A stretch of 64,000 bases of DNA from an uncultured Draconibacterium sp. Lineage in GTDB: Bacteria; Bacteroidota; Bacteroidia; Bacteroidales; Prolixibacteraceae. The translations under genes were made by a program, and so were the position numbers. Below, in pieces: positions 5,286-29,499 of this stretch. The notes beneath the pieces were generated by a model. It was not told where the DNA came from. It did no database searches and was given only the letters and a program-made list of their open reading frames with translations. Numbering within the stretch: the first letter of the stretch is position 1; each line of letters starts with the position of its first letter. Location: the NCBI RefSeq assembly GCF_913063105.1, contig NZ_CAJXYQ010000004.1, positions 186,001-250,000 of the forward strand. Reading direction: 5' to 3'.

Positions 5286-5293
5286 TGTATACA
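5286..5293. promoter_or_regulatory. Putative GntR operator upstream of the rpiB-dhaKL operon
   Basis: The palindrome TGTATACA sits between the MFS/TIM operon end and rpiB, about 140 bp upstream of the rpiB ATG. The same core occurs twice before the GntR gene and before two other transcription units of this window. A TTTG about 10 bases upstream on the minus strand could be a -33 element, so a bound repressor would overlap the promoter. FCD-type GntR proteins commonly bind such palindromes. Confidence 0.55.
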
Positions 5294-5315
5294 TTTTGTG
5301 ACAAAAAAATTTTTC

Positions 5316-6179
5316 CTAGCGCGTAACGTGAGGCAGTTCTTTTTCCAAAAACTTCAGGCTTTCTTCAACCCAGAAATCCGGATTCTCAACAAAGCCCCCA
5401 CTGGCTTCACTTCCCATTTCAATACCGGCTACACATGGTTCGCCAAGTTTTGCGCAGTTTTCTTCAATACCCAGTTCAATACATTTATCAACATATTGTC
5501 TGAAAGGCACTGCCCCTGTTCCGAGTATGCTGTTGGTATGTGCAAAGCTTTCCGTCTCGCTAAGGTGAACGTGAATCATACGACTCTTTAACTTTTCAAG
5601 CTGTTCCGGTTCTTCACGGGTAATTACCAGGTGGCCCACATCAATATTCGGATACACATTAGGCAAGCCAATGTCTTCAACTGCTTTGGCCAGTTTGTAC
5701 GTATTGTTGCAAATAAAATAAACGTGCGGATCGAGTTCAATACCTACGAACAGGTTTTTATCGAGGCACCAGTCGGCAAATCGGCCTACATTCTCGAGCA
5801 TGTACAACCATGATTGCTCGGGAGTTACTCCCAGCTCGTACAAACCTCCTCCCCAGCAAACTAAAAGCTGACGACCACCCAATTCCATCTGAAATTCGGC
5901 GCAGGTTTTCATGTAGTCAAAAACCGCATCACGTTTTTTCTTGTCGGGATGAGCAGTATCCTTGGTAGCTACCAGCAACATTTGTGTACTGTGGATATCG
6001 TTATCTTTAACAATTCTGATGGCTTCGCGTTTTTGCGCTGCTGTCATCGTTTGCGGGTTTCCTTTTCGTATGCCCGCATATTCAATGTACTTAAAGCCAT
6101 ACTTTGCCGCCGAACGCAGCGACTCTTCCGGTCCCTTGTTTCCCACTTCGTAAACCAGGGTGTTTAATGCTAACTTCAT
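5316..6179 (-). CDS. TIM-barrel sugar (phosphate) isomerase/epimerase
   Basis: 287 residues of the xylose isomerase-like TIM-barrel family, distinct in sequence from the paralogue at 1972-2940. Probable metal-binding residues are Glu in FVGIELDPH, Asp and His in NIDVGHL, His in MIHVHLSE and Glu in AGIEMGSE. No signal peptide is seen, so it is cytoplasmic. It is the last gene of the gntR-MFS-TIM unit (44 bp after the transporter gene), so it likely acts early on the imported compound, whereas the second TIM enzyme belongs to the kinase operon. Exact reaction (isomerisation or epimerisation) is not determinable. Confidence 0.78.
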   Translation of the reverse strand: MKLALNTLVYEVGNKGPEESLRSAAKYGFKYIEYAGIRKGNPQTMTAAQKREAIRIVKDNDIHSTQMLLVATKDTAHPDKKKRDAVFDYMKTCAEFQMELGGRQLLVCWGGGLYELGVTPEQSWLYMLENVGRFADWCLDKNLFVGIELDPHVYFICNNTYKLAKAVEDIGLPNVYPNIDVGHLVITREEPEQLEKLKSRMIHVHLSETESFAHTNSILGTGAVPFRQYVDKCIELGIEENCAKLGEPCVAGIEMGSEASGGFVENPDFWVEESLKFLEKELPHVTR

Positions 6180-6223
6180 CTATTTCTTTTTATGCTTTGT
6201 TACTGTTAAAATCCGGCGAGAAC

Positions 6224-7519
6224 CTACTTTGCTTCAATACTTTTATTAGGGTTCATTAAAAACCAGGCTACAATCGACACCATACTTAATCCGGCGCAGA
6301 TATAGAAAAACATATCGTTTCCGGCCAGGGCCAGTTTGGCATCTACGCCCGATTTTATAAGGCCATCGGCTAAGTATCCAAAAGCTAAAATAGAGGTAAA
6401 AGCGCCGAGGTTACCAGCCATATTCATGGTTCCGGATACTGCACCGGCATTTTCCTTACCAATGTCGATGCAGAAGGCCCACGATGGACTCAAGGTCATA
6501 TCGGCACCAAAAATTGCCAGTGTTAAAAACAACACTTTATTGATATCGGTGCTTGCGTTGGTCATTAAAACTACACCAAGCGCAGCAAGTGAAAACCCAA
6601 CAATTGCAGGCAGTCGTCTTGACAAACTTAGATTACCTGACTTGTAAATCTTATCAACTAAAATACCTGAAACCCAATTACCAACAGCACCTCCGAGCAA
6701 TGGTGCCATGGCCCAAAAACTTGCTGCTGTACCCGAACTTTGCAAGGCTTCTTTCAAATATGGGAACATCCAGGTTAGGGTAAAATAAAAGGTAAAGTTA
6801 CTGCCAATATATTGTACCATGGCCAGTAACATATTTTTCGATTTCAGTGTTTGAAAAAAAGTAAGATTACCTTTTTTTACACCATCGTCCTGCTGACGTG
6901 TTTCTAAAATGTATTGCTTTTCTTCTGCACTTACCAGTTTCGACTCCTCAGGCGTATTGCGGAAATACAACCACCACACTAAAGCAAAAACAAGCCCAAC
7001 TGCTCCGAAAATGAAAAAACTTCCACGCCAACCCAATGCTAAAATCAAAGCAACCACAATTGGATAAGCCACAGCTCCGCCTATTCGCGAACCGGAAAAG
7101 TTGATTCCCTGAATAATACCGCGTTCTTTAACCGGGTACCATTTGTACACCACTTTGGCCAGGGTAGGAAAAGCTCCTGCTTCGCCGCCTCCAAATAAGA
7201 AACGGATTACCACCATGGATACAAAATTCCAGGCAGCACCGGTAAGCGCAGTAAGTATCGACCAAACCGTAATTATGGTTGTCATTGCCAGGCGTGGCCC
7301 TTTTTTATCGGCAAAGCGCCCTCCCGGATTTTGCATTAAAGCATAACCAAGCGTAAAAGCCGCCATAACCCATGCCCATTGGATATTACTTAGCCCGAAT
7401 TCGTCGCTAACACTCCCCTTTGCTGCTCCTATACATGCACGATCGACGTACATCAAAACAGAAATTAAAAAGGTAAAAGTTACAAGGATAAATCGTTGAG
7501 GAATGATAGTTCGTTTCAT
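6224..7519 (-). CDS. MFS transporter, anion:cation symporter (ACS)-like
   Basis: 431 residues with about 12 hydrophobic segments. The MFS loop 2-3 motif appears as GGRFADKKGPR after helix 2, and FGGGEAGAFPTLAKVVYKWYP is typical of the hexuronate/tartrate/phthalate-like ACS branch (first 20 residues suffice to see it: GGGEAGAFPTLAKVVYKW). Family members import organic anions, often sugar acids, with protons. It lies 19 bp downstream of gntR and 44 bp upstream of a TIM-barrel enzyme, so it is the probable inner-membrane importer for the pathway. ACS membership hints that the imported molecule may be acidic, but this is weak evidence. Confidence 0.85.
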   Translation of the reverse strand: MKRTIIPQRFILVTFTFLISVLMYVDRACIGAAKGSVSDEFGLSNIQWAWVMAAFTLGYALMQNPGGRFADKKGPRLAMTTIITVWSILTALTGAAWNFVSMVVIRFLFGGGEAGAFPTLAKVVYKWYPVKERGIIQGINFSGSRIGGAVAYPIVVALILALGWRGSFFIFGAVGLVFALVWWLYFRNTPEESKLVSAEEKQYILETRQQDDGVKKGNLTFFQTLKSKNMLLAMVQYIGSNFTFYFTLTWMFPYLKEALQSSGTAASFWAMAPLLGGAVGNWVSGILVDKIYKSGNLSLSRRLPAIVGFSLAALGVVLMTNASTDINKVLFLTLAIFGADMTLSPSWAFCIDIGKENAGAVSGTMNMAGNLGAFTSILAFGYLADGLIKSGVDAKLALAGNDMFFYICAGLSMVSIVAWFLMNPNKSIEAK

Positions 7520-7538
7520 TGGTTTCTAATTAATTTGG

Positions 7539-8177
7539 TTATTCATTCTTTATTTTTTCACGAATGAGTTCCTGAGTTTTTACGGAGTGTTGGCGCATTA
7601 ATTTTTCGGCCAGCGCTGCATCTTTGCTCGCAATAGCCGCTATAATAGCCAGGTGTTCGGGTAAGGTTTCTTCCGGTTCGCGAATTAAACCTCCGCGATA
7701 GGTTTGCGAAGTAATGTTTTTAACCACTTCAAATTTCTGCAGAATCTGGTTTCCGCTAATCTGCAATACTGCATTGTGAAATGCCTGGTCTGCTTCAATG
7801 TATTTTTTGAAATCTATTCTTTTCTTCCCCACAAAAGGCTTAAACAATGCATTTAAATCTTCGAGTTCGCGCGCTGAAATAATTTGTGCTGTGCGCCGTG
7901 CTGCAATACCCTCAAGAGCTTCTCTGCACTCAAAAGCATCAAGCAATTTTGCATTGTCTATTTCGGTAACATAAAATCCTCTGCGGGGCAAATTTTCCAC
8001 GAGCATCTCATTTTCAAGCATTTGAAATGCTTTATGCAAGGGCATGCGACTTACCCCAAACATGGCAGCAATTTGTTCCTGAACCAGTTTTTCTCCCGGC
8101 TCAAATTCATTCGCCAATATCATGGTTTTTAGCCTTTTGTAAACTTCAAAGCTTAAATCAGTATGCTTAATTTTCAT
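7539..8177 (-). CDS. GntR-family transcriptional regulator, FCD (FadR C-terminal) type
   Basis: About 212 residues from MKIKHTDLSFEVYK. The frame extends upstream to a TTG inside the operator, so the ATG at 8177 is chosen. Residues 10-75 form the winged helix (LVQEQIAAMFGVSRMPL with the recognition helix). The rest is an all-helical FCD effector domain with the expected Asp/His metal-ligand pattern (EADQAFHNAV, LPEHLAI, RQHSVKT). It heads the operon with the MFS transporter and a TIM enzyme. A perfect palindrome lies 12 bp upstream of its start codon and another about 100 bp upstream, so it probably represses itself and the whole locus until a pathway intermediate binds. Confidence 0.88.
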   Translation of the reverse strand: MKIKHTDLSFEVYKRLKTMILANEFEPGEKLVQEQIAAMFGVSRMPLHKAFQMLENEMLVENLPRRGFYVTEIDNAKLLDAFECREALEGIAARRTAQIISARELEDLNALFKPFVGKKRIDFKKYIEADQAFHNAVLQISGNQILQKFEVVKNITSQTYRGGLIREPEETLPEHLAIIAAIASKDAALAEKLMRQHSVKTQELIREKIKNE

Positions 8178-8189
8178 CGTTATGTTGTT

Positions 8190-8203
8190 TTTTGTATACA
8201 AAA
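8190..8203. promoter_or_regulatory. Putative GntR autoregulatory operator 1
   Basis: TTTTGTATACAAAA is a perfect 14-bp palindrome ending 12 bp before the gntR ATG. It would cover the ribosome entry or promoter-proximal region of the regulator's own transcript. It is the longest and best version of the palindrome in the window. Confidence 0.65.
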
Positions 8204-8277
8204 GCTAAAAGTACTATTAATTACCAACTTTAATGATAGTTCATTGTTTTTCTACGGTTTTTCAAAGATATATATTT

Positions 8278-8287
8278 TTGTATACAA
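8278..8287. promoter_or_regulatory. Putative GntR autoregulatory operator 2
   Basis: TTGTATACAA, a perfect 10-bp palindrome centred 86 bp from operator 1, close to eight helical turns. Two sites on the same helix face upstream of an autoregulated gene would permit cooperative binding or looping. This is inferred from spacing only. Confidence 0.6.
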
Positions 8288-8491
8288 TATTCATTATACC
8301 ACTCACTTTTTATTTAATTGAAAATACGGAGTCGGAATCTACTATACCAAAACACTGATAAACAAACTGATAGAAAGTCAAAAAAAATACTTAAAAAAAA
8401 GGAAACACAAAAGTTGTGCGATACGATTAATGCATACCGCTAATTTTTAAGAAAGTGTTTTAACACAAAAAAACATTTGTTAGCCCAGATT

Positions 8492-9784
8492 TTATCCTTT
8501 AAAAACTTTATGAGTTTTAATATAATCCGGATCAATACGAATACCCAAACCGGCACCCAATGGTGCTTTAATTATTCCATTTTCGCACTTAAACGCTCCG
8601 TTCTTACTTTCTATTGGAATAATATTTCCATTAGCATCGGGGGTTTGGAACATTTTAAATTCGTGGTATTTGTATATTGAAGGACAAACCGAAACCATAT
8701 GAAGCATGTATAAAAACCCAAAACCTCCGCGTGAAATATGTGGCGTTATTTTTAAACCTGCTGCTTTCACCATATTGGCTACCTGCATGGTTCGAATCAT
8801 GCCGCCGTAGTAAAATAAATCGGGCTGCAGAATTTGAAACACCTGGTTACCAATCAGATATCTAAATGCATGCACTCCTATTTCCTCCTCGCCTCCAGCC
8901 ATTTTTATATCAAGCGCACGTTCTACCTGTTTTTGCTCTTCGTACCAGTCCCAGGGCACCGGTTCTTCCCAGAAATCGTAATTATATTCCTCCAGAATTT
9001 TTCCAAGCCGGATGGCCTCTTTTACTCCATATGAGCCGTTTCCGTCAATGGCCAATACCATTTCGTCGCCCCAGAATTCGCGAGCCATACGAATGAGTTT
9101 CTCTGTTCTTCCGGGCGCATTATCCCTGTCTAAGCCAAGATTATCGCCGGTTCCGGCTCTGAGCTTAATAGCTTTTGCCTGAGTTTCCACTACATCTTTA
9201 TGCATGAGTTCGATTGAAACTTCAGGTTCTTTTTGCCTGAAATCGGCCAAATGATGGCCGAGGTAAATATGAATCTCAGGATTTATTACATCTCCTATTA
9301 ATTGCCCGGCCGGTTTATCAGCAATATTCCCTAACATATCGAGAATAGCAAACTCAATACCAGCTACATGAACATTTAATGGAATACCTTGTCGCTTTAC
9401 ATTTTTTTCAACGGCGTTAAAAATCAGCTGGTCGAGATGGCGTGCATCCTGGCCTACAAAATGTCGGGCAAGTACTTTGGGTACCATCGGATAACTTACC
9501 TGTGCGATAAACGGATGACCTGCGGAAAGGCCTTCAGCACCATCGGTTGACCTTACCCGATACAAACAATTGTCTTTTAACAACAAAAGCTCAACAGATT
9601 CGATAATAACCGGATGCGAAAAAAGTTCGCGTTTTAATACGGGTAGTTTTAATGCTTCATCCAGCAAAGAATAATCGGTGATTTTGCCTGCCCAACTGTT
9701 CTGTGTTTTGCAAGACGATGGTAATATGGAAGCTGCACCTGCCAGGGCAGCGCCTGCAATAAAATTTCTTCTGTTGGTTTTCAT
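8492..9784 (-). CDS. Exported mandelate racemase/muconate-lactonizing enzyme-family dehydratase
   Basis: 430 residues of the enolase superfamily, MR subgroup. The N-terminus has a twin-arginine motif (NRRNF), a hydrophobic stretch and a lipobox-like LPSSC (Cys25), suggesting a Tat-exported lipoprotein, which is unusual for the superfamily. Active-site features: KLRAG after strand 2 (Lys of the KxK/R motif), AIDGNGSY (metal Asp), FWEEPVP (metal Glu), AGGEEE (metal Glu), LQPDLFYYGG and ITPHISRGG, the last two supplying the Asp/His dyad. Such enzymes dehydrate or epimerise sugar acids. It is the last gene of the FAD oxidoreductase-DUF1593 operon, 8 bp after DUF1593. A sugar acid made outside the cytoplasm would be its natural substrate. 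Confidence 0.82.
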   Translation of the reverse strand: MKTNRRNFIAGAALAGAASILPSSCKTQNSWAGKITDYSLLDEALKLPVLKRELFSHPVIIESVELLLLKDNCLYRVRSTDGAEGLSAGHPFIAQVSYPMVPKVLARHFVGQDARHLDQLIFNAVEKNVKRQGIPLNVHVAGIEFAILDMLGNIADKPAGQLIGDVINPEIHIYLGHHLADFRQKEPEVSIELMHKDVVETQAKAIKLRAGTGDNLGLDRDNAPGRTEKLIRMAREFWGDEMVLAIDGNGSYGVKEAIRLGKILEEYNYDFWEEPVPWDWYEEQKQVERALDIKMAGGEEEIGVHAFRYLIGNQVFQILQPDLFYYGGMIRTMQVANMVKAAGLKITPHISRGGFGFLYMLHMVSVCPSIYKYHEFKMFQTPDANGNIIPIESKNGAFKCENGIIKAPLGAGLGIRIDPDYIKTHKVFKG

Positions 9785-9792
9785 AGTTTCGC

Positions 9793-11295
9793 TTACTCAA
9801 CGTTAATTACAATTCTGCGGTAATCAAACAAGGAAGCAATTTCATTTTTATCCTGCACTTCCAGAATAATATGAATCTCTTTTTCCTTGGCATCTTTCGG
9901 CACAACGAAATTAAAGGTCTGATTCTCTGCATTTTTTAGTTCCAGCTTCTCGGGATAGGTACCAGCTTCAGCATAACACCACCACAAAAACTCCAGCTCA
10001 TCGCCATCGGGATCAGAAGAAGCAGAGCCATCCAATAAAATTTGCTCGCCCGGTTTCGCATTCAAAAACACAATCCGATTAGACCTGTCGCCATTTACTG
10101 CTGCATTCGGATTATGATTTGCCTTTTCAAAAGGTTGTAAACACCAGTCCATGCGGCACTGAAAGTCGTTAAAAAAGGCCCTTCTGAATCGCCAAACAGG
10201 TGTAAACCAGTCGTTAAATTCCTTACCGGTTTCAGGATTCACCCATTGGTCTTCAGCTTCGATAAACATATAAAAATCGCCATATTCTTTCTCATCAACA
10301 TTTACACTGGTATGTTTCGACCAGAAATTCTTCACTTTCTCTTTGGTGAATCTACCACTCCAGCCTCCCCAATGCGGATGTTCAATATCATATAATCCTT
10401 TGTTGCACAAGCCTAACCAGGGAATGGTTCCTCCACCTTCAAGAAATGTAACGTGTCCGTTATCGAACTGCCGAAGCGGAAAATACCTGCCAAAAGCACC
10501 ATGGTTGGCAATAATGTGTTGTAAGGCCCACTGGTGCTGTCCAATAGAACTGTATTCGTATTCGCCCCAGGTGTGCGGACCTAAACGACTTCGGTCACCT
10601 TTATTATCGGCAATGCCATCGTTAGCTGGCCCACCGTAGCAATAGGTTTGATAGTTGCTTCTAATCCAATTAATTTCAGGGTATTGAGCACATATCCAGG
10701 CTCCGGCATTATCTTGTGCACCATTTTCATAAACCCGTAGTTTTGAAATAAACCGAGCGAGCTCGGCGGCAGAATGCGCCTTTTCGTAGTCTTTTATGGC
10801 CTGTGCCAAGGTATTTGACCCTGCATTTACCACAATATAGACCGGGCGCGGGTCGTCTTTTTCAACAACTCTGATAATTAAATCGGAACCCGGAGAAGAC
10901 AATCCTTCGCCGGTACTTTCAATACCATAACCGGGTTGCCCGGTGCGCACCAGATTTGTCAGAAATTCGGGTTCGGGATAACCATCGGCATGTTTTTGCA
11001 GATTCTTATAAACTTTTGAATACCCTTGTATCAGGTGATGAAATAACTCGGGATGCAGCACCTGCCTGTACGGATTTTTTGATGCCGGTTGCAGGTATTT
11101 TCCGGAAACCGCCACCAGTCCCTCCAAATCAAACTCGTTGCAATACATTAGCATGTGCATCATTTGCTGTTCTTCGTCGGGTTCGTTACCCATATCAGCA
11201 AGAATAAGCAAGCGAGTTTTTTCAGAAGAATTCTGTTGGGCATGTGCAATAACTGTAAATAAGAACAAGAAAATTAGTATGGTTTTGATTTTCAT
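9793..11295 (-). CDS. Secreted DUF1593 (nucleoside hydrolase-like) protein
   Basis: About 500 residues from MKIKTILIFLFLFTVIAHAQ, a clear signal peptide; the frame is open further upstream but this ATG at 11295 is the sensible start. The mature N-terminus carries LLILADMGNEPDEEQ, an Asp-rich motif typical of DUF1593 (PF07632), which resembles the calcium-binding site of inosine-uridine nucleoside hydrolases. The C-terminal part (about 400-500) contains a cadherin/PKD-like beta domain with DGSASSDPDGDELEFLWW. It may hydrolyse an N- or O-glycosidic bond outside the cytoplasm; no activity is firmly known to me. It sits between the FAD oxidoreductase (88 bp) and the dehydratase (8 bp). Confidence 0.8.
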   Translation of the reverse strand: MKIKTILIFLFLFTVIAHAQQNSSEKTRLLILADMGNEPDEEQQMMHMLMYCNEFDLEGLVAVSGKYLQPASKNPYRQVLHPELFHHLIQGYSKVYKNLQKHADGYPEPEFLTNLVRTGQPGYGIESTGEGLSSPGSDLIIRVVEKDDPRPVYIVVNAGSNTLAQAIKDYEKAHSAAELARFISKLRVYENGAQDNAGAWICAQYPEINWIRSNYQTYCYGGPANDGIADNKGDRSRLGPHTWGEYEYSSIGQHQWALQHIIANHGAFGRYFPLRQFDNGHVTFLEGGGTIPWLGLCNKGLYDIEHPHWGGWSGRFTKEKVKNFWSKHTSVNVDEKEYGDFYMFIEAEDQWVNPETGKEFNDWFTPVWRFRRAFFNDFQCRMDWCLQPFEKANHNPNAAVNGDRSNRIVFLNAKPGEQILLDGSASSDPDGDELEFLWWCYAEAGTYPEKLELKNAENQTFNFVVPKDAKEKEIHIILEVQDKNEIASLFDYRRIVINVE

Positions 11296-11325
11296 TGGAA
11301 TTAGAATTTTAGTTGAAAAACATAA

Positions 11326-11371
11326 GCACCCAGTCCGTGTCTCTCCACCAATGAAGCAGGAACGTGGGTGC
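11326..11371 (-). other. Intercistronic inverted repeat between FAD oxidoreductase and DUF1593 genes
   Basis: GCACCCA (11326-11332) and TGGGTGC (11365-11371) are inverted copies flanking 32 bases in the 88-bp gap between two co-oriented genes. No T run follows, so it is not a clear terminator. It could be an mRNA-stabilising stem within the operon, or chance. Confidence 0.3.
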
Positions 11372-11383
11372 CGCAAGGATGAT

Positions 11384-12853
11384 TTATTTTTCGAAATAAA
11401 CGCCGCCTTTTTCAAGGGCTTTTCGGAGAGTTTTATAAGGTAAAGTCCGCGAGTTAAAGCCATTTAAAGCACACAGCGCGGCAGCTGTACCACTGGCTTG
11501 CCCTTGCCCCATACAGCTAACCGTATTGCGTGTAGACATGTGTGCCCGGTGGTCTGAAGTAATCATCATTCCCGATACATACAAATTATCAAGACCTTTT
11601 ACACAAAGTGCACGGTAAGGAATTCCGTAGCTGCCACCATTGGCCACCTGCAAGCGCGGTGCCATATCGTGAAAACCATAAACAAACACATCATCATCAA
11701 AATGAACGCCATTAATTACATCTTCGTGTGAAATATCGTAATCGCAACTTATTAATCGGCCGCGCCGGATAACAAGTGAGGGAGCGGTGCGGGTCATAAA
11801 TGTTTTTTCGAATCCGGGAATATGCTCGCGGAAAAGCTCTACCCCTTTTTTCATTCGTTTGCGCAACTCCAACTCTGCTTTAGCTACGGTATCGCGGTCG
11901 GTAGGACTTTTATCAAGCTTCATGTTCATTTTAATAAACATGAGGTAGTTGTCTTGAGTGGTAGTGGAAATTGCTGACAGTCCGATTTTACGCGCCCCTT
12001 TAATAAACTCCTCAGGATAGCCCTGCGAGCCTTCAGCTCCTATCCGGATAATTCTTCCCGGCTCTCCGCTGCGCACACCATAAGCCAGTTGATGCACAGC
12101 ATCCCTATCGGCCAGAAATTTATAGTATTTTTCAATGTCAACATTACCAAGGCCCATGCTATTTACCACAGCATAATCGTTGGGTTCGGTAAAATCGGCT
12201 CCGGCGTGGGCTGCTAAATCAGCATATCCGGTACAATCCACAAACGATTTTGCAAAAATTACTTCGCGGCCCGAGCGACTTTCCAGAATAGCTCCTTTTA
12301 CCACGCTTCCTTCAACAACTGCAGCGGCCAACAAGGTATTTACACAAACATAAACACCCGCTTCGTCGAGCATTTCATGGGCATTTAGTTTATACAGTTC
12401 CGTATCAATTGCGGTACATACCGAGTCGTATTCAAAATGTTTTTCCATTTCTGCATAACCCGTTGCGCCGCCCATTGCCGTTAAACGGTCGACCATTTCA
12501 GCCGGGATACCGCGCACCAGCTGGCGTTTCTCAACACCCGGAAAAGCTTTCCACAGGTTGTAAAAGCTGTGTAAAGCAGTTCCGCCTTCAACGGCAATAC
12601 CTCCAACATAGCCTTTGTTTTCTACCAGAATTGTTTTGGCGCCCTGGCGTGCAGCAGCAATGGCACAAATTACTCCGGCCGTACCACCACCGGCCACCAG
12701 CACATCAAACTCACGTGCCGGAAGTTTTTTAGCTTCTTCGTTAAAAAATCCGGGTTCAGGAATTGCTCCCTGGTTATTCGACCATGCTGGTTTCCCTGCT
12801 AGAAGGCCCAAACCAAGGGCTCCGGTAGTTTTGTAAAAGTCTCTTCGTTTCAT
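11384..12853 (-). CDS. Tat-exported FAD-dependent oxidoreductase
   Basis: 489 residues. A twin-arginine start (MKRRDFYKTTGALGLGLLAG) indicates Tat export of a pre-folded flavoprotein. The Rossmann FAD motif VAGGGTAGVICAIAAA lies near residue 52 with the acidic end of strand 2 at LVENKGYVGG. The architecture is that of the FAD_oxidored family (PF12831), common in Bacteroidota and Planctomycetes carbohydrate loci. It probably oxidises a sugar or sugar derivative outside the cytoplasm with an unknown electron acceptor. As first gene of the operon with DUF1593 and the dehydratase, its promoter region contains a TTGTATACAA palindrome only 25 bp before the start codon. Confidence 0.8.
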   Translation of the reverse strand: MKRRDFYKTTGALGLGLLAGKPAWSNNQGAIPEPGFFNEEAKKLPAREFDVLVAGGGTAGVICAIAAARQGAKTILVENKGYVGGIAVEGGTALHSFYNLWKAFPGVEKRQLVRGIPAEMVDRLTAMGGATGYAEMEKHFEYDSVCTAIDTELYKLNAHEMLDEAGVYVCVNTLLAAAVVEGSVVKGAILESRSGREVIFAKSFVDCTGYADLAAHAGADFTEPNDYAVVNSMGLGNVDIEKYYKFLADRDAVHQLAYGVRSGEPGRIIRIGAEGSQGYPEEFIKGARKIGLSAISTTTQDNYLMFIKMNMKLDKSPTDRDTVAKAELELRKRMKKGVELFREHIPGFEKTFMTRTAPSLVIRRGRLISCDYDISHEDVINGVHFDDDVFVYGFHDMAPRLQVANGGSYGIPYRALCVKGLDNLYVSGMMITSDHRAHMSTRNTVSCMGQGQASGTAAALCALNGFNSRTLPYKTLRKALEKGGVYFEK

Positions 12854-12878
12854 TTTAGTTTAGATTGATTTTTTGAAT

Positions 12879-12890
12879 ATTGTATACAAT
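12879..12890. promoter_or_regulatory. Putative GntR operator upstream of the exported-enzyme operon
   Basis: ATTGTATACAAT is a perfect 12-bp palindrome located 25 bp before the ATG of the FAD oxidoreductase. It shares its 10-bp core with both sites in front of gntR, which links this operon of exported enzymes to the same regulator. Confidence 0.6.
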
Positions 12891-12951
12891 GACAAGATAC
12901 AAAACTTAAACGAAAATAAATTGAGACAAACAAATTTGAAATGATTTTAGA

Positions 12952-13582
12952 TTACCACTCAACCACTTGCGGGGTATAAGTTGGCCCAGAGGAATGGATG
13001 TTTCCCGCTTCGTCAAACCAAATGGGGTCGATTACCAATTTAGGCACACCATCTTCCTGAATACCGTGACACGAAAGCCAGCAACGCACAAATTTTGCCA
13101 TCGTCGTCTTCAAAAAATGTAAGGTCATTGCCGTTACAAAGTGGCTTATTTTCCGTAACAACCGTATTAGGGCCTTAAATATTATCAGCGACTACATAGC
13201 CTGTATGCTGACCATACAAAACACAAACTATCGTTTCTGCAATTAAACAGAGCATAGTATTTTACTCCTATTTTTTGTATTTCAGGTGCCCATAAAAGGC
13301 GATGTTATCATTTATCTATCGCAGAACGTTTAAGCATATAGTCCATAAACACCCAATTCAGTAAGTCTTTTTATTTATACAAAACCATGCCCGGGTTCAG
13401 GTTTCCGTCAGTTTCCTGCCGTGGTCAATGCGGATGTGATGTTCCGGTTAAATACCACCAATCGCCATCGCGCAGTACCTGGCAATCGTGCAGCCCGTTT
13501 GGGTCGATACCGTTTGAAATTGGATTTTGGTATTCGAAAGTTTGTTTTTTTTTTGATTGCAGGCAAAAAGCACAACCACCAT
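12952..13582 (-). pseudogene. Decayed GH43-like glycosidase gene (lipoprotein)
   Basis: Reading the minus strand from an ATG at 13582 gives MVVVLFACNQ, a lipobox-like end of a signal peptide, then a run of ten A bases where the frame slips. In the next frame come YQNPISNGIDPNGLHDCQV, RDGDWWYLTGTSHPH, an in-frame TGA in place of an expected Trp, PRQETDGNLNPGMVLYK, a TAA, KDLLNWVFMDYM, TGA-TAA, then LLWAPEIQKIG and KYYALFNCRNDS. Two more frame changes follow, with GQHTGYVVADNI and PLCNGNDLTFFEDDDGK, and finally HGIQEDGVPKLVIDP up to a stop at 12952. The order and motifs (WAPEI, CRNDS) match GH43-type propeller enzymes. At least three frameshifts and five stop codons show it is dead, and the C-terminal half appears missing. 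Confidence 0.85.
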
Positions 13583-14085: not shown

Positions 14086-14099
14086 ATAAGTACAAGTTG

Positions 14100-16184: not shown

Positions 16185-16187
16185 GTA

Positions 16188-17583: not shown

Positions 17584-17597
17584 AACGTACAAATAGT

Positions 17598-19389: not shown

Positions 19390-19409
19390 CCGCCAGATAT
19401 AAAAACAAG

Positions 19410-20651: not shown

Positions 20652-20743
20652 TTAATGCCAAACCTCTCGAAGCCACAATTATTTTGCACAAGTATTTGGT
20701 TTGTATTACATACTTGTTTAATTTTACAACCAAATTAAACCAC

Positions 20744-21364: not shown

Positions 21365-21653
21365 AGCGCTCGACCCTTTACTTCATTCGCAAGTTAGGCT
21401 GGCCATAACCACTATCCTCATTAATGTTAAATCGGCCGAATTTTCGTATTTACTCGAAAACATCGAAACCTCTAAAGGAAATCTCAGTTTCCAGATTACA
21501 AAGCTAAAAGAGGAGGGCTACATCAGGGTTAAAAAATCCTTCAGAAAAAATTACCCGCTTACAACCGTAAGTATTACTCCCAAAGGAATTGAAGCCTATG
21601 AAAACTACATTGATGCCATTTCTGAATATTTCAAAAAATCAGGAAAAATATAA
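21357..21653 (+). CDS. Winged-helix transcriptional regulator (MarR/ArsR-like, PF13601 type)
   Basis: 98 residues, essentially a single winged-helix domain. Helices LHSQVRLAITTILIN and FSYLLENIETSKGNLSFQI contain the recognition helix, and the wing is in IRVKKSFRKNYPLTTVSITP. It resembles the winged helix DNA-binding domain family that usually starts with LDPLLHSxxRLxI. No sensor domain is attached. It overlaps the upstream membrane protein gene by 8 bp, so it probably regulates that small operon. Confidence 0.8.
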   Translation: MFKALDPLLHSQVRLAITTILINVKSAEFSYLLENIETSKGNLSFQITKLKEEGYIRVKKSFRKNYPLTTVSITPKGIEAYENYIDAISEYFKKSGKI

Positions 21654-21814
21654 CCACCTGTCCTTTTGCCAATTCGTAAATACCTGAACAAACTTTGTGG
21701 TTTTTCATTAGAATCAGAGTAGGTAAAAAGGTCAATTTAGAGAAATGCAGCCGCTAATGCCGGAATTTGGTCAGGATTAACTATTTTGGCTTATTCGCTA
21801 AATAGTCAAAAAAA

Positions 21815-23824: not shown

Positions 23825-23911
23825 ATTGAGAATTAAATTGTTTTGAGCACACAATTAATTTATCAATATAAAGTTGATTATAAAACGTGTTTGCCTAGCT
23901 TTGTGCCAATT

Positions 23912-26320
23912 ATGAGAAACTTTACCATTCTATTTTTTTTACTGCTTACCGAGCTAATAACTTTTGCTCAAAGCAACAATGCAACCTTAAAGGGTATTAT
24001 TAAAGACCAAAATGGAATACCGGTTGATATGGTAAATGTGGTACTGAAAGAATACCCAACCCTTGGAACCACAACAAATGCAAAAGGTGAATTCTTATTG
24101 CGAATTCCGGCCCGTAAAAACCTAACTGTTATCTTCACCTCACTGGGGTACCAAACATTTCAAGATTCGGTTTTTGCCCAGCGCGAAGAAACAATTATAA
24201 AAAACATCGAACTTCCGGAGAAGAACCTTGAATTGGCAGAAATAATTGTACGCGAACAACGCCGCAATGGAGGTAGCATTGTTAGTCTCGATCCTAAAAT
24301 TATTAATTCTATTTCAAGCGCATCAGGTGGTATCGAGGCGGGATTAAAAACACTGCCCGGTGTTTCGTCCAATAACGAATTAAGCTCGCAATACACCGTT
24401 CGAGGTGGTAATTTCGACGAAAACCTGGTTTACGTAAACGATGTGGAGGTATACCGCCCTTTTCTTATTCGGTCGGGGCAACAAGAAGGCCTGAGCTTTG
24501 TAAACAGCGATATGGTTTCAACCATCGATTTTTCAGCCGGCGGTTTTAACGCAAAATATGGCGATAAAATGTCGTCGGTTCTTGATATTAAATACCGGAA
24601 ACCCAGCGATTTTCAGGGCTCCGCATCCGTAAGTATGCTCGGGGCAACTGCCCATTTCGAAGATGTAGCATTAAACGGCAAACTCTCGCACATTTCAGGC
24701 ATCCGTTATAAAACCAACCGATACATCCTGGGCAGCCTCGACGAACAAGGGGAGTACGATCCGCGTTTTCTCGATTTCCAAACTTATATTACCTATCAAT
24801 TCAACGAGAAACTCGACTTGTCGTTTTTGGGTAACGTGGCACAAAACGAATATAATTTTATACCACAAACACGCGAAACAACATTTGGCACCTGGCAAAA
24901 TCCGTTAAACACCAAAATTTATTTCGACGGACAGGAACAAGACGATTTTCAGACCTATTTAGGAGCAATTACGGCCAACTACCACCCCAATCCAAACTTG
25001 AACTTAAAATTTATCGTTTCGGCCTACCACGCCAAAGAAAACGAAACTTACGATATTCAGGGGCAATATTACCTCAACCAATTGGAAAGAAATATGGGTT
25101 CTGAAGAATTTGGCGACAGTTCGTTAAACCTGGGTGTAGGCACTTTTATCAACCACACCAGAAACACGCTGGATGCCACCGTTTACAGTATTTCGCACAA
25201 AGGTGCCTGGAATTCCGAAAATCACCTGATGAACTGGGGGCTTAAATTTCAACACGAAAAAATAAACGACGAACTGAACGAATGGATCTACCGCGATTCG
25301 GCCGGTTATTCCATTCCTTATTCTGATGAGCAAGTTCTGCTGTATTACACATTGAACGCCAAAAATAAAATAAGTTCGAACCGGGTAACAGCATTTTTGC
25401 AGGACAGCTGGAGTGTGCCGGTAAACAGTGGCGATTTGTATTTAACTGGTGGTGTTCGTTTTAATTTCTGGGATTTCAACAACGAGTTGCTGATAAGCCC
25501 TCGCGCCACCTTAAGTTATTTTCCACAGTGGGAAAAGAAAATGTCCTTTCGCTTGTCGGCAGGAATGTACCACCAGTCGCCATTTTTCAAAGAATTAAAA
25601 AAGAGCGACGGCTATATTAATTACGATTCAAAAGCCCAACGATCATTTCAATTGGTTGGAGGTACTGATCTGCTTTTTACGGCCTGGGACCGCCCATTCC
25701 GATTTACCACCGAAGCTTATTACAAACACATGAGCCGACTTGTACCCTACCAGGTTGACAATGTTAGAATACGCTACCTTGCCGAACAGGAAGCAACCGG
25801 TTATGCAACCGGCATTGATTTGAAAATAAACGGCGAATTTGTAAGTGGCTTGCAATCGTGGGCAAGTTTATCGTTTCTTCAAACTGAAGAAGATATTAAG
25901 GGAGACGGACATGGGATGATTCCGCGCCCAACCGACCAGTGGATGAATTTCAGCTTGTTTTTTCAGGATTACCTGCCCGGCAACCCCACCTATAAAATGC
26001 AGCTATCAGGCTTTTACGGCGCACGACTGCCTACCGGCCCACCAAATGGAGAACGCTACCAGGATGTTTTTCGCATGCCCTCGTACCGTCGTATCGACCT
26101 TGGCTTTTCAAAAGTTTTTATTAGCCCTGCAAATCGCTCCAACTCGGCGCTATTCAAGCACATTACCGATATGTGGCTGAGTTTGGAGGTTTTCAATATT
26201 CTCAACATTAACAACACCATTTCGTACTTTTGGGTGTCGAGTATTTATGGCGACCAATATGCCGTACCTAATTACCTCACTTCCAGAAAATTCAACTTAA
26301 AACTTACAATTAAATTTTAA
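23912..26320 (+). CDS. TonB-dependent outer-membrane receptor with carboxypeptidase-like domain
   Basis: About 802 residues from MRNFTILFFLLL. The ATG at 23912 begins a proper signal peptide, unlike the upstream in-frame start. A CarboxypepD_reg-like domain (about 20-100) contains GIIKDQNGIPVDMVNV and TNAKGEFLLRIP. The plug (about 125-240) contains GIEAGLKTLPGVSS and YTVRGGNFDENLVYVNDVEV. The remainder is a long beta-barrel ending FNLKLTIKF, a classic outer-membrane C-terminus. No SusD gene is adjacent, so it is a SusC-relative or siderophore/peptide-type receptor rather than part of a standard PUL. The ligand is unknown. Confidence 0.88.
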   Translation: MRNFTILFFLLLTELITFAQSNNATLKGIIKDQNGIPVDMVNVVLKEYPTLGTTTNAKGEFLLRIPARKNLTVIFTSLGYQTFQDSVFAQREETIIKNIELPEKNLELAEIIVREQRRNGGSIVSLDPKIINSISSASGGIEAGLKTLPGVSSNNELSSQYTVRGGNFDENLVYVNDVEVYRPFLIRSGQQEGLSFVNSDMVSTIDFSAGGFNAKYGDKMSSVLDIKYRKPSDFQGSASVSMLGATAHFEDVALNGKLSHISGIRYKTNRYILGSLDEQGEYDPRFLDFQTYITYQFNEKLDLSFLGNVAQNEYNFIPQTRETTFGTWQNPLNTKIYFDGQEQDDFQTYLGAITANYHPNPNLNLKFIVSAYHAKENETYDIQGQYYLNQLERNMGSEEFGDSSLNLGVGTFINHTRNTLDATVYSISHKGAWNSENHLMNWGLKFQHEKINDELNEWIYRDSAGYSIPYSDEQVLLYYTLNAKNKISSNRVTAFLQDSWSVPVNSGDLYLTGGVRFNFWDFNNELLISPRATLSYFPQWEKKMSFRLSAGMYHQSPFFKELKKSDGYINYDSKAQRSFQLVGGTDLLFTAWDRPFRFTTEAYYKHMSRLVPYQVDNVRIRYLAEQEATGYATGIDLKINGEFVSGLQSWASLSFLQTEEDIKGDGHGMIPRPTDQWMNFSLFFQDYLPGNPTYKMQLSGFYGARLPTGPPNGERYQDVFRMPSYRRIDLGFSKVFISPANRSNSALFKHITDMWLSLEVFNILNINNTISYFWVSSIYGDQYAVPNYLTSRKFNLKLTIKF

Positions 26321-26415
26321 GCTATAATTTTCTAAAATAATGTTTTGAATGTTTAAACATTATTAAAACTGCCGCCTTGCACAAGTTGCTTTCCAGATGT
26401 TGATTGGTAAACAAT

Positions 26416-26423
26416 TACCTTTG
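26416..26423 (+). promoter_or_regulatory. Bacteroidota-type -7 element upstream of the PhzF gene
   Basis: TACCTTTG fits TAnnTTTG and lies 22 bp before the PhzF gene start. A well-spaced -33 TTTG is not obvious. Confidence 0.4.
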
Positions 26424-26445
26424 CGATACAATTTAATTGCTATTT

Positions 26446-27231
26446 ATGATGCTAACAATTTACCAGGTTGACGCTTTTGCTGAAAAAGTTTTTGAAGGAA
26501 ACCCGGCGGCCGTTATTCCCTTAAGCGAATGGTTACCCGATGCTACCATGCAAAAAATTGCGATGGAACACAACCTTTCTGAAACGGCCTTTTTTGTTCA
26601 GCAAAACGAATGCTTCCATATCCGCTGGTTTACGCCGGAGTCGGAAGTAGATTTGTGCGGCCACGCTACCCTGGCTGCTGCACATGTTTTGTTCGAGCAT
26701 TTGCAGCATACTTCATCAAGCATTTGTTTTCAATCAAGAAGCGGAAACTTAAGCGTAAAAAAAGAAGGAGACTTATTGGTTTTAAATTTCCCTGTATCGG
26801 AAGTAGAGGCAAAATACATTCCAACAGGTTTGAAAACAGCCTTTAATATTCATCCTATCGAGTGTTTTAAAGGCCGCGAAGACCTGATGCTGGTGTTTAA
26901 AAATGAAAATGACATAAGACAACTGCAAGCCGATTTTCAGAAAATACTTGAAGCCAGCAAACGGGGAATAATCTGCACCGCAAAATCTGATGACGTTGAT
27001 TTTGTTTCGCGCTTTTTTGCTCCGGCAGTTGGCATAAATGAAGATCCGGTTACTGGCTCGGCACACACCATGCTTATTCCGTACTGGGCCAAACAACTTA
27101 ATAAAACTACCCTTGTGGCCAAACAATTATCAAAAAGGGGTGGCATTTTATATTGCAAACACCTCGACAACCGCGTTGAAATTGGCGGAAAAGCGGTTAC
27201 TTACCTTGTAGGCAAAATCAATATTCAGTAA
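26446..27231 (+). CDS. PhzF family isomerase
   Basis: About 261 residues. Start at ATG 26446 or the next codon (MLTIYQVDAFAE is the usual family opening). The catalytic Glu lies in HNLSETAFF, and the family motifs DLCGHATLAAAHVLF and EDPVTGSAHTMLIPYW are intact. PhzF proteins are double hotdog-like epimerase-fold enzymes. Outside phenazine clusters they are broadly distributed with unclear substrates. There is no phenazine gene here, so it is a stand-alone isomerase of unknown role. Confidence 0.9.
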   Translation: MMLTIYQVDAFAEKVFEGNPAAVIPLSEWLPDATMQKIAMEHNLSETAFFVQQNECFHIRWFTPESEVDLCGHATLAAAHVLFEHLQHTSSSICFQSRSGNLSVKKEGDLLVLNFPVSEVEAKYIPTGLKTAFNIHPIECFKGREDLMLVFKNENDIRQLQADFQKILEASKRGIICTAKSDDVDFVSRFFAPAVGINEDPVTGSAHTMLIPYWAKQLNKTTLVAKQLSKRGGILYCKHLDNRVEIGGKAVTYLVGKINIQ

Positions 27232-27393
27232 ACGCTTCATTCGAAACAAATCAATTTTTCAACCGATAATAATAATTTGATCAATATCAGGTTTTATAAA
27301 GAATTACCGTTGATTATTGAGATTTTGATTTATTATAGTCGTATATTTTAAAAAAGAAAACAGTAACCCACATTATTAATAACTTCATTTTAT

Positions 27394-28098
27394 ATGAACG
27401 ATCCTTTTGGTTTAGCCATTAAAGAATTTTATGAACGGGGAAAAGCTCCTCAAATAAATGTTGATTCGAACTACACCGAAGGCGAAGAAATTGCGCCATC
27501 CTATTTTTTCAGAAATGAAAAAGAACTGCCACGAATTGAAAAAACAGCATTAAAAAATTGCAAAGGAAAAATTTTGGATGTAGGCGCTGCAGCTGGATGC
27601 CACTCGCTTATTCTGCAAAAAAAAGGATACAATGTAACTGCGCTGGAAAAATCGGAACTGGCAGCTGAGGTGATGAAAAAACAAGGCATTGTTAAAGTTG
27701 TTCATGCCGATATTTTCGATTACCATGAAAAACAGTTTAATACCATTCTTTTGCTGATGAACGGAACGGGTATTGGTGGAAACATTAGTGGATTAAAAAA
27801 GCTGCTGGCTCATTTAAAAAGTCTTTTGCTCGATGGTGGTCAGATTTTAATCGATTCGTCGGATATAAAATACCTTTTTGAAGAAGAAGACGGCTCGAAA
27901 TGGGTTGATCTGGGATCTACCAGCTATTACGGCGAGATGCAATACGAAGTTAGCTTCCGGAAATCATCGGTAAAATTCGACTGGTTGTTTGTTGACTTCA
28001 ACACCCTGCAATTAGTTGCCAATGAAACAGGATTAAGTTGCAAACTAGTTGAAAAAGGCGACCACTTTGATTATTTAGCTCAGCTAAAACTGCAATAG
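27394..28098 (+). CDS. Class I SAM-dependent methyltransferase
   Basis: 234 residues. The SAM-binding motif I is ILDVGAAAGCHSLILQKKG (about 64-82), with the acidic residue of motif II in VTALEKSE and motif III near IFDYHEKQFN. ILLLMNGTGIGGN resembles post-motif III of small-molecule methyltransferases. The substrate cannot be predicted. It stands alone, 162 bp after the PhzF gene on the same strand. Confidence 0.8.
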   Translation: MNDPFGLAIKEFYERGKAPQINVDSNYTEGEEIAPSYFFRNEKELPRIEKTALKNCKGKILDVGAAAGCHSLILQKKGYNVTALEKSELAAEVMKKQGIVKVVHADIFDYHEKQFNTILLLMNGTGIGGNISGLKKLLAHLKSLLLDGGQILIDSSDIKYLFEEEDGSKWVDLGSTSYYGEMQYEVSFRKSSVKFDWLFVDFNTLQLVANETGLSCKLVEKGDHFDYLAQLKLQ

Positions 28099-28310
28099 GC
28101 GGCTGTTTAAACAAAAAAATGACCAAAGCTGTAGCCTGTAATCCAATCTCTGAATGTTAGTGAAATCACAAAAGACCATTCGCAAATCGAGCGAGTAATT
28201 TCGCAGAGTATTTTATGCCGTTTGCAGAATAATTCCGATGGTTTACAGATATAATTTCGGTATTTTCTGTCGTTTACATAATTTGGGGAAAGATTTAAAC
28301 AGAAAACAAC

Positions 28311-28529
28311 ATGAAAGCTCTTATCCTCATCTCTTCCATTTTTTACATTCTTGGTTTAAAAATCAGTAACAAAATCGACATCGTAAAAAAAAGTAATCCG
28401 GTTGATAAAATCATCTCGCACAAAGTTCAGTCTTCAGAGCCCGACAAAACTGCAAAGTTTGAGCAGGAAGAAAAAGAAGCGGATGAAAACGAAGAAAAAC
28501 AACCGGCAGTTAACAACACGATGGAATAG
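28311..28529 (+). CDS. Small membrane-anchored hypothetical protein
   Basis: 72 residues: an N-terminal hydrophobic segment (MKALILISSIFYILGL) followed by a charged, Glu/Lys-rich tail (QEEKEADENEEKQ) that is likely disordered. It is followed by a good Rho-independent terminator, which supports real expression. No family is recognised. The hydrophobic stretch could be a signal peptide or an anchor. Confidence 0.5.
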   Translation: MKALILISSIFYILGLKISNKIDIVKKSNPVDKIISHKVQSSEPDKTAKFEQEEKEADENEEKQPAVNNTME

Positions 28530-28580
28530 CAGTACAACCATCGCTACTGGTTAAGCGTATAAAATTATTAAGCAGAAAAA

Positions 28581-28617
28581 CAGGAAATCATTTTTATGGT
28601 TTCCTGTTTTTGTTTTT
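28581..28617 (+). terminator. Rho-independent terminator after the small hypothetical gene
   Basis: CAGGAAA (28581-28587) pairs with TTTCCTG (28600-28606), followed by a T-rich tail on the plus strand. Confidence 0.75.
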
Positions 28618-28655
28618 TGTACATTCGGTGAAAAGTTGCTAAAGATTGCTTTTAA

Positions 28656-29462
28656 ATGAATTGCCAAATTACATCCAACGATATTCGTGTAAAAAGCTGG
28701 GAAGAATTAACTCAGGAAGTATACCATGACTCGTGGAAACCCAGCCTCGGCCGTTTCAGGTCGGATTTTGCCTTTCGGGGATTGTCAGATTGCAACTACC
28801 GATTAGAGAATAGTTTCCTTCGCAATTGCGGCAATCGCCCGGAGCTGGAATACCATATGCTTCGGAATTTTAGAAAATATGCCCGAATCGATGATTTTTC
28901 GTTAGCCAACACGCAGCTGCGAGCCTTGGTACTGGCGCAACATCATGGCCTGGCAACCCGCCTGCTCGACTGGACTTACTCGCCATTTATTGCCATGCAC
29001 TTTGCCACATCAAACACCGAAAAATACCACATTGACGGTGTGATTTGGAAAGTAGACTTTGTGCAGGTAAACCGCCTGATACCGGAACCCTTAAACGCTT
29101 TGCTTACGCTCGAAAAATGCAATGCTTTTACCGTTGAAATGCTTGAGTCGGTTTTTCCATCGCTGCAAAAACTCGATGAAACCATTGGAAGCGGCCACGC
29201 TTTGTTTTTTGAGCCACCTTCAATCGATGACCGTATTGTAAACCAGTTTGCACTGTTCTCGGTAATGACCAGTGCCACCGCTGTTCTCGACAAATGGCTA
29301 AACAAACACCCTGAAGTGTACCGTCGGATTATTATTCCGGCCAGTTTAAAATGGGAAATTCGCGATAAGCTGGATCAGGCAAACATCACCGAACGAGTAC
29401 TTTTCCCCGGACTTGATGGGCTGGCCAGCTGGCTAAAAAGACACTATCGCCCGAAAATCTGA
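28656..29462 (+). CDS. FRG-domain protein
   Basis: 268 residues. The FRG signature FAFRGLSDCNYRLENSFLR (about 38-56) gives the domain its name. The second conserved block is LAQHHGLATRLLDWTYSPF (about 92-110). Some FRG proteins are found near phage-defence and toxin modules and the domain has been linked to NAD-related enzymatic folds, but many are solitary and uncharacterised. Here the neighbours are a small hypothetical and an aldo/keto reductase. No toxin-antitoxin partner is obvious. A strong terminator isolates it from the upstream gene. Confidence 0.8.
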   Translation: MNCQITSNDIRVKSWEELTQEVYHDSWKPSLGRFRSDFAFRGLSDCNYRLENSFLRNCGNRPELEYHMLRNFRKYARIDDFSLANTQLRALVLAQHHGLATRLLDWTYSPFIAMHFATSNTEKYHIDGVIWKVDFVQVNRLIPEPLNALLTLEKCNAFTVEMLESVFPSLQKLDETIGSGHALFFEPPSIDDRIVNQFALFSVMTSATAVLDKWLNKHPEVYRRIIIPASLKWEIRDKLDQANITERVLFPGLDGLASWLKRHYRPKI

Positions 29463-29491
29463 TTTTTCGTTTTCAATCTCCGCATATATTT

Positions 29492-29499
29492 TGTATACA
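29492..29499. promoter_or_regulatory. Putative GntR operator upstream of the aldo/keto reductase
   Basis: TGTATACA within TTTTGTATACATTTTT, 82 bp before the reductase start. It shares the core palindrome with the gntR, rpiB and FAD operon sites about 20 kb away, suggesting a distant regulon member. Confidence 0.45.

Follow-up and report, generated by a model that had tools for sequence, protein, structure and literature searches.

In Draconibacterium, a GntR regulator with an FCD domain is probably a local autorepressor, to judge from sequence comparison, and it would control both the eight-gene catabolic operon that it heads and the adjacent FAD-oxidoreductase/Sde182/dehydratase operon. This is a case of ordinary local gene control in a system without earlier study. 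The locus lies in a stretch of 64,000 nucleotides, analysed as a whole and called the window below. The preliminary description had proposed a wider regulon, in which five intergenic copies of the octamer TGTATACA link gntR to two operons and to a distant reductase. The conserved gntR leader upholds part of that proposal, whereas the reductase site is restricted to one species and the rpiB site is patchy.

The regulator and its gene row

The gntR gene heads a row that is proposed to form a single operon of eight genes:

7539–8177, minus strand: gntR, FCD-type GntR regulator (PF00392 and PF07729 above cut-off)
6224–7519, minus strand: MFS transporter (importer), second in the operon; its top NCBIfam match is a D-galactonate transporter, below cut-off
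5316–6179, minus strand: TIM-barrel sugar isomerase/epimerase (PF01261), 78-99% identity in seven related loci
4681–5175, minus strand: rpiB, RpiB-type sugar-phosphate isomerase (PF02502; NCBIfam PRK05571, 161.6 bits, cut-off 135)
3664–4668, minus strand: dhaK, DhaK-type kinase subunit (PF02733)
3010–3651, minus strand: dhaL, DhaL-type kinase subunit (PF02734; TIGR02365 above cut-off)
1972–2994, minus strand: second TIM-barrel sugar isomerase (PF01261)
114–1934, minus strand: DUF5060/collagen-binding-like protein, last gene, lipoprotein-like N-terminus by eye

The rpiB-dhaKL genes had been described as a separate operon. They are instead the downstream part of the row led by gntR and the MFS gene, and 7 of 10 related loci keep the gene set in this way.

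The N-terminal winged helix of the regulator (PF00392) scores 66.2 bits against a cut-off of 27, and its C-terminal FCD domain (PF07729) 76.5 bits against 24.3. Its start is probably the ATG at 8177, since the orthologs align from the same methionine; an alternative TTG at 8201 belongs to the palindrome described below. The recognition helix reads SRMPLHKAF (or HRAF) in the 10 regulators that have a site, and is changed to SRTPLVKAF in one divergent ortholog without a site. Residues D130, H134, H175 and H197 are invariant in 11/11 orthologs and are putative metal ligands of the FCD domain, following the pattern of one Asp/Asn and three His in metal-binding family members (passages of PMC7797058).

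Putative operators at the two operons

The following elements and genes are relevant for the two promoter regions:

8278–8287: putative operator O1, TTGTATACAA, separated by 7 bp from the -7 box that follows it
8263–8270, minus strand: predicted -7 box TATCTTTG of the gntR operon promoter, TAnnTTTG type, following the published Bacteroidetes consensus
8192–8201: putative operator O2, TTGTATACAA, within the palindrome 8190–8203, 14 bp before the gntR ATG
12880–12889: putative operator O3, TTGTATACAA, within the palindrome 12879–12890, kept in the same-species genome G090
11384–12853, minus strand: FAD-dependent oxidoreductase (PF12831), first gene of the second operon
9793–11463, minus strand: Sde182-like protein of nucleoside-hydrolase fold (PF07632)
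8492–9784, minus strand: mandelate-racemase/enolase superfamily protein, probable sugar-acid dehydratase (PF13378; NCBIfam dehydratase models all below cut-off)
5286–5293: weak octamer site internal to the operon, reading ATGTATACAG on the minus strand, in the 140 bp that separate the TIM-barrel gene from rpiB

The exact octamer is indeed present at the five places described (5286–5293, 8193–8200, 8279–8286, 12881–12888 and 29492–29499), all of them intergenic, and the palindromes before gntR do measure 14 bp (8190–8203) and 10 bp (8278–8287); the one at 12879–12890 measures 12 bp. A sixth copy lies at 62825–62832, within an ORF of 472 aa. Six copies in the window compare with 0.80 expected, and 0 of 100 dinucleotide shuffles gave six. 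It is the decamer TTGTATACAA, rather than the octamer, that is informative. The full decamer is found at only three of the five sites, with two mismatches at the rpiB site and one at the reductase site.

O1 and O2 are 86 bp apart (8.2 helical turns). A palindrome of the TKGT-N2/3-ACMA type near the regulator's own gene is provided by TTGTATACAA before gntR, in the window as in relatives. The centre of O3 lies about 31 bp before the FAD-oxidoreductase ATG. Outside the species, the oxidoreductase gene forms part of the gntR row in G134 and lacks a site in G061, where gntR gave no match.

Genome-wide background and conservation

In the 4.93-Mb genome, 12 decamers are found against 0 for a reversed-pattern control, and 72 octamers against 16. 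A stretch of 4.7 kb holds three of the 12 decamers, of which two precede gntR and the third precedes the FAD-oxidoreductase operon. Such proximity has a chance of 0.0006 in simulations with uniformly placed sites, and five of 72 octamers within 24 kb a chance of 0.027, both spans having been set from the observation itself. Six of the 12 decamers overlap ORFs (for C6:294039, the overlap is limited to the opening codons of the longest ORF), and decamer numbers do not track gntR across the genus. Per genus genome, the median is 11 in 6 gntR-positive genomes versus 10.5 in 22 gntR-negative ones, gntR presence having been assessed in 28 of 37 genomes. Genome-wide enrichment of the decamer was therefore rejected as a sign of a regulon.

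The least credible reading of the sites is chance, namely functionless AT-rich palindromes in AT-rich intergenic DNA: it could point to the nine decamers that lie in ORFs or elsewhere between genes, none of which has a decamer in the homologous DNA of G105, G124 and G134 by blastn, but the sites of the gntR locus are clustered, are preserved amid changing flanking DNA, and in many cases stand in register with a -7 box. Three of these nine are intergenic, C1:255324, C2:375542 (before a SusC-like gene) and C4:45197 (before a TIM-barrel gene), and no -7 box was found at any of the three. The blastn comparison covered 28 decamer loci of the 29 places in G105, G124 and G134, the 29th being the gntR site of G105, which is seen in L066. 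A decamer within an ORF does recur in G105 and G124 (L163, L078), so recurrence alone is no proof. Decamers elsewhere in the genome are mostly background.

Comparison with relatives, also suggested at the outset, favours the gntR leader. Eight of the 10 related loci having this regulator show the decamer there with 0-1 mismatch, exact in G090, G105, D. sediminis, G010, L048 and G089, and with one mismatch in G134 and L049; the L049 site, TTGTATAAAA, has a broken AC half and is weak. At the ninth locus, L051, the decamer precedes the next unit, and G069 is the only one without it. These loci share ancestry. In G010, the sole exact decamer of the genome is the one in the gntR leader (locus L085). 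At O2, the 18 bases TTTGTATACAAAAAACAA are invariant in the window, G090, G105 and D. sediminis. O1 is kept with one change in G105 and is lost in D. sediminis, where only O2 remains.

It is quite improbable that the sites serve another regulator, such as a different FCD protein or a global factor, and that gntR adjoins them by accident. Decamers are equally common in genomes without this gntR, and the genome encodes two other FCD genes. However, the sites accompany this gntR in relatives whose neighbouring genes otherwise differ, and no decamer, whether exact or with one mismatch, occurs in the 3.4-kb loci of the two other FCD genes. A companion gene gives a further argument: among its 13 copies in the genus, the three that start a gntR-locus unit have a site, and the other 10 are without one.

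Register with the -7 box

The -7 box consensus follows passages of PMC7366714 and PMC4747536. A TAnnTTT[A/G] box lies 5-8 bp downstream of 9 of the 18 sites examined and of 2 of 60 control decamers (Fisher p 1e-5), this spacing range having been chosen after inspection of the leaders. The strict TAnnTTTG form is found at 6/18 sites versus 1/60 controls. Left out of the 18 were the sites of G090, which are nearly identical, and one intergenic decamer of G134 (L182:2774). The controls, scanned in both orientations, were for the most part single sites, one from each genus genome, together with the remaining sites of this genome, G105, G124 and G134; they wrongly included the true G010 site (L085), one of the two matches, which works against the result. 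No -7 box is seen at O3, at any of the three O2 sites, at either rpiB-gap site, at either L051 site or at L049.

Away from the gntR loci, the combined operator-plus-box pattern is rare. In 7 gntR-positive genomes it gives 15 matches, of which 8 belong to the gntR locus, as expected of a pattern built from those same loci. It gives 8 matches in 9 gntR-negative genomes, and the reversed pattern 17 over all 16. The predicted autoregulation of gntR and control of the FAD-oxidoreductase operon draw support from the conserved sites, from the geometry of the promoters and from the parallel change in the recognition helix.

The rpiB gap and the aldo/keto reductase

Two more elements are concerned by the wider proposal:

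29491–29500: candidate site TTGTATACAT upstream of the aldo/keto reductase, with TATCTTTA (29506–29513) at a distance of 5 bp
29582–30496, plus strand: aldo/keto reductase (PF00248)

A wide regulon of five sites, in which the regulator also controls rpiB through an internal promoter and the reductase 21 kb away, is possible but rather unlikely. The spacing between the reductase site and its -7-like box matches that of the gntR-locus sites, and gntR and the reductase are two of only three places in the genome with operator plus box. The reductase site is therefore an open candidate, rather than an established member of the regulon. However, the site (0-1 mismatch) occurs only in the two genomes of the window species, and in 0/28 ortholog leaders of other species, including the gntR-positive G105, G124 and G010. 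One of these 28, in G070 (no gntR match), holds the bare octamer as ATGTATACAT. The gene itself is found in 33/37 genus genomes, gntR or not; the leaders examined were 30 of 35 matches in these 33 genomes, two being from the window species.

At the rpiB gap, a 13-mer, ATGTATACAGTAT, is common to the window and D. sediminis, and the site is also present in the same-species G090. It is nevertheless missing from five relatives (absent from the G105 and G010 gaps, and none listed for G134, L048 and G089), and where present it has two mismatches and no -7 box.

Proposed mechanism and pathway

We infer binding, repression, looping, the class of effector and the single transcript of each operon. According to the local model, a GntR dimer would bind TTGTATACAA. 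At gntR, O1 would cover the DNA immediately preceding the -7 box and thereby block polymerase. O2, 86 bp away in the leader, could serve as a roadblock or be joined to O1 by a loop. Once the substrate is imported, an acidic sugar-derived metabolite may bind the FCD metal site, and the repressor would be released.

RpiB scores 153.1 bits with the D-erythrulose-4-P isomerase model, below its cut-off of 240. No NCBIfam model passed its cut-off for the two TIM-barrel proteins, the dehydratase, the MFS protein, the reductase or the companion, and searches against solved structures yielded only general isomerase matches. A bolder and rather unlikely reading is that Prolixibacteraceae and their relatives possess a compact catabolic system of an uncharacterised kind, whose exported oxidoreductase and dehydratase enzymes would feed the MFS importer and then intracellular DhaKL and RpiB, possibly acting on a tetrulose phosphate. 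This system would be defined by its regulator, whose operator would be portable: set at a near-fixed distance from a -7 box, it may have recruited a SusC importer or the glycosidase-like companion gene in relatives, and the genus-wide reductase 21 kb away in the present species only. The tetrulose idea draws on the below-cut-off isomerase match and on the published tetritol pathways.

Comparison with known systems

Judged by title and abstract start, none of the papers found for the decamer concerns a bacterial GntR regulator, and no report joining Draconibacterium and GntR was found. Among the matches listed for apiose or erythrulose with Bacteroides, the regulon is not reported. GntR regulators for fucose and mannose are named in the part of PMC3878776 consulted. 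The octamer together with GntR led only to PMC7797058, on a different regulator. For an FCD-type GntR protein of this bacterial group, where the searches brought up no such report, the locus offers an operator and a promoter layout that are specific and can be tested, and the effector of the regulator provides a handle on what the unassigned sugar pathway consumes. The case also shows that the sharing of an exact palindrome across a window can guide interpretation only once the genome-wide background and the relatives have been checked.

The best sequence match among solved structures is PDB 7xp0/7xp1, a probable transcriptional regulator (E 8e-25, residues 8-206). Passages of PMC4494728 give TKGT/ACMA operators for the FadR subfamily, with a 2-nt spacing in some groups, and state that G/C is avoided at site positions 6/14 when residue 40 is a Pro; we read these site positions as the K of TKGT/ACMA. 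The TTGT...ACAA of the window fits these TKGT-N2-ACMA rules. The different regulator of PMC7797058 is Atu1419 of Agrobacterium fabrum, which belongs to the VanR group of FCD GntR proteins (PDB 6Z74, 6ZA0, 6ZA3, 6ZA7 and 6ZAB) and matches the window GntR with E 6e-16. According to passages of that paper, Atu1419 controls hydroxycinnamate degradation; the outer bases are A and T in its operator and T and A in that of the window. It binds ATGTATACAT, a palindrome of 10 bp that shares its core with the window decamer and occurs twice in the protein's own control region, the two copies being separated by 190 bp. It reads the G through an Arg of helix 3 and holds a metal in its FCD domain.

Predicted operators and operon layout

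The five intergenic copies of the octamer TGTATACA, from which the preliminary description had built a five-site GntR regulon, are indeed present. The window (C4:186001-250000, on contig C4 of a 4.93-Mb genome) holds six octamers, five intergenic and one coding, versus 0.80 expected from shuffling, and three full decamers TTGTATACAA, the more informative form of the predicted operator.

Predicted sites in the window
8278-8287: decamer O1, before gntR
8192-8201: decamer O2, before gntR
12880-12889: decamer O3, before the FAD-dependent oxidoreductase gene (FADox)
5286-5293: octamer in the gap between a TIM-barrel gene and rpiB
29491-29500: candidate site before an aldo/keto reductase gene (29582-30496, plus strand)

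The whole genome contains 72 octamers and 12 decamers. In simulations with uniform site placement, three of the 12 decamers fall inside 4.7 kb with a chance of 0.0006, and five of the 72 octamers inside a 24-kb span with a chance of 0.027. Taken by itself, the octamer overstates the regulon.

The gene stretch 12853-114 of the window is encoded on the minus strand throughout.

Gene groups, in order
Upstream group (minus strand): FADox, Sde182-like protein, enolase-superfamily dehydratase
Second group (minus strand): gntR, MFS, TIM-barrel, rpiB, dhaK, dhaL, TIM-barrel, DUF5060 protein

Related genomes are denoted by G-numbers (G090 being the same species) and loci cut from such genomes by L-numbers. 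The second-group core keeps a near-identical order in seven of ten related loci (G090, G105, D. sediminis, G010, G134, L048 and G089). For this reason rpiB-dhaKL, previously taken for an operon of its own, is most plausibly assigned to the gntR operon. Elsewhere, only gntR and MFS are visible on the short contig L049, a different rpiB-like/transketolase unit follows gntR in L051, and MFS is the sole second-group gene near gntR in G069. For gntR the likely start is the ATG at 8177: ortholog alignments begin at its Met, and the longest ORF opens on a TTG that belongs to the palindrome itself. The combination of kinase, RpiB and isomerase would point to a small ketose or sugar acid as pathway substrate. 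FADox is rare, occurring in four of 140 family genomes; it bears the site in the window species and in G134 lies within the gntR row, whereas the copy in G061, a genome outside the gntR-positive set, lacks a site.

The TIM-barrel/rpiB gap also contains an imperfect 19-nt inverted repeat (5177-5239, 79% complementary, 25-nt loop), which may form a hairpin for processing or attenuation; this stretch is present in the window species and absent from G105, D. sediminis and G010.

Conservation of the sites

Conservation was followed in ten related loci with regulators 45-99% identical, D. sediminis being the closest named relative by regulator sequence (85%). Six loci have an exact decamer in the gntR-operon leader: G090, G105, D. 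sediminis, G010, L048 and G089; in G010 the gntR row is headed by a companion gene. The leaders of G134 and L049 have a one-mismatch decamer, that of G069 neither form. In L051, the stretch separating gntR from the following unit holds a decamer and a one-mismatch copy. Shuffled leaders of like make-up gave an exact decamer in 0-0.4% of trials and a one-mismatch decamer in 0.8-7.6%. At O2, the 18 bases TTTGTATACAAAAAACAA are invariant across the window, G090, G105 and D. sediminis, unlike much of the remaining leader, which has diverged. The only exact decamer of the whole G010 genome is that of the gntR locus.

The outlying sites fare differently from the gntR leader sites. The rpiB-gap octamer region, ATGTATACAGTAT, is common to the window and D. 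sediminis; the octamer is missing from this gap in G105 and G010, and none is among the sites listed for G134, L048 and G089. The reductase is found in 33 of 37 genus genomes, with its predicted site confined to the window species: none of 28 reductase leaders from other species has the site at 0-1 mismatch, one of them (G070, gntR-negative) having the octamer as ATGTATACAT. The reductase site of the window has the right operator-box geometry (see below), and the reductase may be a recent recruit to GntR control. Of the five-site proposal, the gntR and FADox operons are retained as probable targets; the rpiB-gap site is patchy and the reductase site is limited to one species. An ORF with an FRG-domain-like motif by eye (28656-29462) lies upstream of the reductase in the same orientation and ends 119 bp before the reductase ATG.

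The companion gene, without Pfam match, was counted 13 times across 12 of the 37 genus genomes. Three copies stand first in a unit of the gntR locus (D. sediminis, G010, G134), and all of these have the site, centred 47-59 bp upstream; the remaining ten lack it. Proteins of ~360 aa whose N-termini look like signal sequences form a family that accompanies the gntR operon (L045:2989-4095, L067:8902-9981, L047:8897-9976, L048:9070-10185, L069:11935-13041). By eye they resemble a glycosidase of TIM-barrel type carrying two acidic motifs, with no Pfam match for two members scanned and no NCBIfam match for one.

Exact decamers are also found at other places. Those inside dhaK of G090 (L065:5645-5654) and G134 (L182:8749-8758), where the window lacks the decamer and reads TTGTAAACAA at 3845, are probably a codon coincidence, and the ORF-internal decamers of L078 (G124 C1:1795902) and L163 (G105 C3:2561685), two gntR-positive genomes, have near-identical flanks and probably reflect coding conservation. 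In G134, an intergenic exact decamer (L182:2774-2783, contig C64) lies near the gntR row, directly downstream of an Sde182-like gene, with no clear gene behind. On another G134 contig than gntR's (C78), two operator-like sites, ATGTATACAA and TTGTATACAA, 32 bp apart (L183:9642-9683), lie upstream of what by eye is a glutamate dehydrogenase-like gene.

Promoter geometry

TAnnTTTG at -7 is described as an element of Bacteroides promoters (PMC7366714, PMC4747536). The form TAnnTTT[A/G] follows the decamer by 5-8 bp at nine of 18 sites.

Sites followed by the box
Window: O1, reductase site
G105: O1
D. sediminis: companion gene, SusC gene
G010, G134, L048, G089: one site each

It was not found at this spacing after O2 of the window, G105 and D. 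sediminis, O3, both rpiB-gap sites, both L051 copies and L049. Only two of 60 control decamers have the box, one being the true G010 site (Fisher p 1e-5, an optimistic value because the spacing range was fixed after the leaders had been inspected); the strict TAnnTTTG gives 6/18 versus 1/60. Such a spacing would place the predicted operator where RNA polymerase must bind, as expected for a repressor.

When 16 genomes were searched for the operator combined with the box, the seven gntR-positive ones yielded 15 matches, eight of these at the gntR locus (the gntR-operon leader in six genomes, two units 6-7 kb upstream in D. sediminis). The nine genomes without gntR yielded 8, and the reversed pattern 17 across all 16. 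Because the pattern was derived from the gntR loci themselves, the search contributes its rarity away from them and no more. In the window genome it occurs at three places only: at gntR, at the reductase and inside a sigma-factor-like ORF. G120 (C1:1047078) and G122 (C157:138871), both without gntR match, have one operator-plus-box sequence in common, TGTATACATAAATATATAAATTTG, perhaps the target of another regulator.

Fit between regulator and site

The recognition helix SRMPLHK/RAF is identical in the ten regulators having a predicted site; G069, where the site is absent, has SRTPLVKAF. With the conserved Arg 38 as anchor for an ungapped count, the window GntR has Glu 28 and Pro 40, while Arg 59 was placed by eye; we take this numbering, tentatively, to match FadR-subfamily positions. 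We read site positions 6/14 as the K of TKGT. These residues would fit TTGT over TGGT: in the FadR subfamily, Arg 28 and Gly 59 are described to prefer a G/C pair at these positions and Pro 40 to avoid it (PMC4494728). An extra TTGTAT-like half-site is seen by eye just upstream of several relatives' sites, and an additional half-site is described for the family in the same source.

Comparison with known systems

Judged from sequence, the data are best explained, with good probability, by an autoregulatory FCD-GntR circuit that acts locally on two neighbouring operons, the broader five-site regulon being partly supported. The spacing of O1 and O2, 86 bp (8.2 turns) in the window and 84 bp (8.0 turns) in G105, is compatible with looping; looping was shown for the FCD protein Atu1419, according to PMC7797058, whereas here we infer it from the spacing. 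The novelty lies solely in the lack of an earlier description in the literature searched. By its domain content and operator type, the system belongs to the FCD GntR subfamily and would work as its other members do.
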